From Betaproteobacteria bacterium (GTDB taxonomy: Bacteria > Pseudomonadota > Gammaproteobacteria > Burkholderiales > SHXO01): a stretch of DNA of 64,000 nt. A program made the position numbers and the translations under genes. Location: contig JANXRW010000080.1 of assembly GCA_025356655.1 (NCBI GenBank), positions 1-64,000 of the forward strand, given 5' to 3'. The notes beneath the pieces were generated by a model. That model was not told the DNA's origin. It saw only the letters and a program-made list of their open reading frames with translations, and searched no databases. Shown piece after piece: positions 56,801-57,836 of the stretch (position 1 is the first letter of the stretch; each line of letters opens with the position of its first letter).

Positions 56801-57836
<1,036 letters not shown>

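Follow-up and report, generated by a model that had tools for sequence, protein, structure and literature searches.

A dctP gene for the substrate-binding protein of a TRAP transporter, located in the 64,000-nucleotide stretch of DNA analyzed here (the window), contains a single in-frame TAG. This raises the question of whether the codon reflects a recent nonsense mutation, an error in the assembled sequence, a codon read as an amino acid, or the end of a shorter protein. The gene, its parts, and the two membrane-subunit genes behind it are as follows.

56781..57785, minus strand: dctP, TRAP transporter substrate-binding protein gene; PF03480 positions 1-283, one TAG inside
57483..57785, minus strand: dctP portion upstream of the stop, 101 residues including the signal peptide; carries E76D and Q79L
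57480..57482, minus strand: premature TAG replacing an invariant Glu codon; Glu in 94/94 close relatives
56784..57479, minus strand: dctP remainder, 232 codons behind the stop, fully conserved
56189..56800, minus strand: dctQ, small membrane subunit, intact; PF04290 positions 2-131 of 132
54909..56192, minus strand: dctM, large membrane subunit, intact, terminator TAG; PF06808 positions 1-412 of 413

The dctP frame starts at the ATG at 57785, with a ribosome site (GGGGGAGG) graded as good upstream and a signal peptide at the N-terminus of the product, and runs through 334 codons to a TGA at 56783-56781, the TAG at codon 102 being its sole internal stop. With this stop read through, the product matched Pfam DctP (PF03480) over positions 1-283 of 286 (E 1e-109), scoring 366.8 bits against a gathering cut-off of 23.4, and thus belongs to the family as a whole domain. 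Since this match was a single stretch spanning the TAG, dctP carries neither an accompanying frame shift nor a missing piece. An earlier sequence-only reading had described a 334-codon TRAP frame without a shift, together with an intact ribosome site, signal peptide, and dctQM, and all of this was borne out, dctQ and dctM matching their Pfam families nearly full length. The TRAP operon dctP-dctQ-dctM spans 57785 to 54909 on the minus strand, with dctQ and dctM adjacent to dctP as in a genuine DctP locus and the end of dctQ overlapping the start of dctM by GTGA. In its full-length match, signal peptide, and the dctQ and dctM behind it, the gene resembles the C4-dicarboxylate-type DctPs of PF03480, to many of which, mostly of proteobacteria, it is 70-76% identical, whereas it differs from known DctPs in the one TAG at the invariant Glu codon.

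Codon 102 was compared with 80 loci from named genomes and with further relatives' loci. Glu was found in 97 of the 98 relatives of at least 50% identity (63 GAG, 34 GAA) and in every one of the 94 of at least 60% identity, in agreement with the earlier claim that DctP relatives have Glu at this site. As in a nonsense pseudogene, the premature stop therefore stands where all relatives of at least 60% identity have a sense codon. GAG, the majority Glu codon, is one base from TAG. The change, a transversion, hits an invariant site, which counts against a real mutation. The nearest dctP relatives are only about 76% identical, so that no close strain is able to date the stop; the comparison of close strains that had been proposed found none with a dctP ortholog. 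Behind the stop, none of the 223 comparable residues was novel relative to the relatives, and 0 of 63 near-invariant positions were broken. A long-dead gene would look otherwise, and this lack of decay thus indicates that the lesion is either very young or not real. Before the stop, two invariant positions are broken, E76D and Q79L (26 and 23 codons upstream), and hence the description of both flanks as fully conserved held for the downstream side and failed for the upstream side. Q79L is probably harmless, because more distant DctPs whose structures have been solved also have Leu at this position. Taken with the stop nearby, the two substitutions hint mildly that the sequence is poor here or that selection has been relaxed.

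We lean, at somewhat better than even chances, toward a nonsense mutation of one base that arose recently in the sampled population and struck an otherwise intact dctP. The lone TAG in a frame of full-length homology and the presence of other interrupted genes in the genome speak for it, whereas a base error would look identical and the two unusual substitutions within 26 codons upstream may mean a poorly assembled patch. A base-call or consensus error, in which case the organism's dctP would be intact and its transporter would work, is accorded a considerable probability, although one short of even. The window's genome is a draft metagenome bin (3.81 Mb, 165 contigs, 68.6% complete), the remainder of dctP is under full constraint, and the three oddities (E76D, Q79L, and the stop at E102) lie at invariant sites in a span of 27 codons, the 223 residues behind being free of any, all of which would suit such an error. 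Against it, Leu79 has its precedent in the distant DctPs, and the conserved genes of the bin proved clean: no internal stop was found in the 103 listed domains, 21 of them AMP-binding and the others ABC-ATPase domains (82 over the cut-off). Likewise, an alignment of approximately 33,000 codons with a sister genome, in which the best match was kept per place (lower-ranked antisense alignments ran at approximately 46-52% identity), contained no convincing internal stop except in one gene near L164:451-556, which also carries a frameshift; the leftover stops were antisense, at gene ends, or in this one damaged gene. Two broken copies were seen among the short-chain dehydrogenases, one with a TGA and also split between frames, the other a fragment with a TAG. 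As a separate observation, a TGA at L228:3892 (plus strand) of the sister genome G002 stands where its relative has Trp (GGTWY-stop-NRYPGARCD), with a frame shift nearby.

A TTG-started frame of 203 amino acids lies downstream of the stop, as would be expected if dctP were a different, deliberately shorter protein and the downstream part a separate gene. We regard this reading as scarcely credible. The stop interrupts a single DctP domain whose homology continues on both sides, the downstream piece would have neither a signal peptide nor the beginning of the domain, and none of the 98 relatives ends there or shows the same split organization; a shorter family protein to which the stop could belong was thus not seen among them.

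The open, perfectly conserved frame behind the TAG is a feature that dctP shares with amber read-through and stop reassignment systems (suppressor tRNA, Pyl), and full-length DctP would result if the TAG were decoded as an amino acid, whether through an amber-suppressor tRNA, a partial reassignment of the codon, or programmed read-through. Such decoding is nonetheless judged quite unlikely. RF1 is encoded in the genome, and in 1.57 Mb of it TAG terminates 58 of the 233 long ORFs whose end could be seen, approximately one-quarter, including pheS, which precedes pheT (genes named from their sequence). Neither avoidance of TAG as terminator nor loss of RF1, either of which would mark amber reassignment, was therefore found, nor were in-frame TAGs seen in many conserved, otherwise intact genes. 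No CUA anticodon occurred among the 31 tRNAs read of 32 matches (30 in loci and 1 in the window) from the 68.6% complete bin; one match on contig C80 was left out, and tRNA-Gln, Cys, and Ile are missing from the recovered set, so that the absence of a CUA tRNA is not final, a point in favor of read-through. No PylS was found above the cut-off in the genome. One weak PylS match below it was dismissed as a sign of pyrrolysine, as 13 of 14 control genomes likewise give a match, which exceeds the cut-off in just one. In addition, with Glu102 invariant in the relatives, nothing suggests that read-through at this site has been selected. The genome of dctP thus differs from amber reassignment systems in its RF1, its normal use of TAG as terminator, the lack of a detected CUA tRNA or PylS, and the lack of a genome-wide pattern. 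Papers found on stop reassignment dealt mainly with phages and had no bearing on dctP. Among the three options raised by the sequence-only reading, the recent nonsense mutation and the base-call error both stand, while suppressor read-through is disfavored on these grounds.

Other in-frame TAGs with continuing homology were found by a codon-usage scan of the same 1.57 Mb, and the existence of these few cases speaks for read-through. With six TAG cases to one TAA case, in-frame TAG at first seemed overrepresented, as under genome-wide reassignment. This was rejected, since the imbalance is consistent with codon usage: at 65% GC, sense codons one step from TAG far outnumber those one step from the other stops, counts summed by hand putting the expected share of TAG at approximately 59%, and GAG and CAG rank with the most frequent codons a single step from a stop. 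Besides dctP, four of the five TAG genes appear frame-shifted, as judged by reading frames rather than by profile match. These are a nitronate monooxygenase-like gene (L153:6130-7104, minus strand; identity supported by Pfam) with apparent frame shifts, an MscS-like channel (L197:16355-17581, minus strand; supported by Pfam) shifted before a cyclic-nucleotide-binding-like tail, a putatively phosphoesterase-like gene at L161:16831-17577 (minus strand), and a presumably AbiEi-like gene, the last two being without a Pfam match. The fifth, a Tn3-family transposase (L172:139-2103, minus strand), matches Pfam DUF4158 across its stop and extends to the contig edge. The TAA case, a sarcosine-oxidase-like gene, looks like a frame-shift pair. 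Interrupted genes of this genome involve TAG, TAA, and TGA alike, and those other than dctP resemble common pseudogenes whose functions are dispensable. Since the four TAG genes also appear frame-shifted, reading TAG as sense would not restore them, which counts against read-through. It is considered highly improbable that the unrecovered portion of the genome encodes an amber suppressor acting at low level and keeping dctP and a few other accessory genes partly active. By itself, the perfect open frame behind the TAG is no pointer to recoding. TAG ends genes throughout the genome, and this, together with the condition of the other interrupted genes, argues against recoding at dctP. The nonsense codon is best explained as an ordinary event, either a recent mutation or a sequence error, rather than by a special reading of the genetic code.

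The genomic setting bears on whether loss of dctP could be tolerated.

53897..57890, no strand assigned: block of approximately 4 kb, SPOR-domain gene and dctMQP, between ndk and tilS; absent at the same site in two sister genomes

The sister genomes G001 (L271) and G002 (L270) keep the order hisS-ispG-rodZ-pilF-rlmN-ndk-tilS-accA with ndk adjoining tilS, and by synteny both are devoid of the SPOR-domain gene and dctMQP at this site. No DctP or DctM ortholog was found in the three genus members compared, where the best DctM match was approximately 31-33% identical and the best DctP match had an E of approximately 1e-23. As the cassette is missing in both sister genomes that have the locus, the dctPQM block appears dispensable, and judging from gene order it is a dispensable cassette specific to this lineage, either acquired here or lost from the sister genomes. 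The genome encodes a second TRAP binding protein on contig C56, and its identity of 33% to DctP suggests that it is unlikely to replace the latter.

In the favored case of a recent nonsense mutation, a one-base change would have turned the Glu102 codon of dctP into TAG and, provided that the base is real, release factor 1 would terminate translation after 101 residues, signal peptide included. The resulting precursor fragment would be without most of the two-lobed binding protein; DctQM, the membrane part, would consequently be made without a receptor, and one TRAP transporter would fall silent. Two sister genomes do without the cassette at this locus, which suggests that such a loss is tolerable. 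Directly observed are the stop itself, the conservation of the codons behind it, intact dctQ and dctM genes, the lack of the cassette in the sisters, RF1, and the use of TAG as a terminator. With a single-lesion nonsense pseudogene, dctP shares one premature stop in an otherwise intact gene, a dispensable locus, and a lineage-specific cassette; it may differ in the base itself, which could be an assembly error. For annotation, the relevance is that the cell may be without one C4-dicarboxylate-type TRAP transporter. Elsewhere in the block, ARAGORN called a tRNA-Ala (CGC) at 54450-54523 (minus strand) inside the proline-rich SPOR-domain gene, a call that is probably spurious because Rfam gives it no support.
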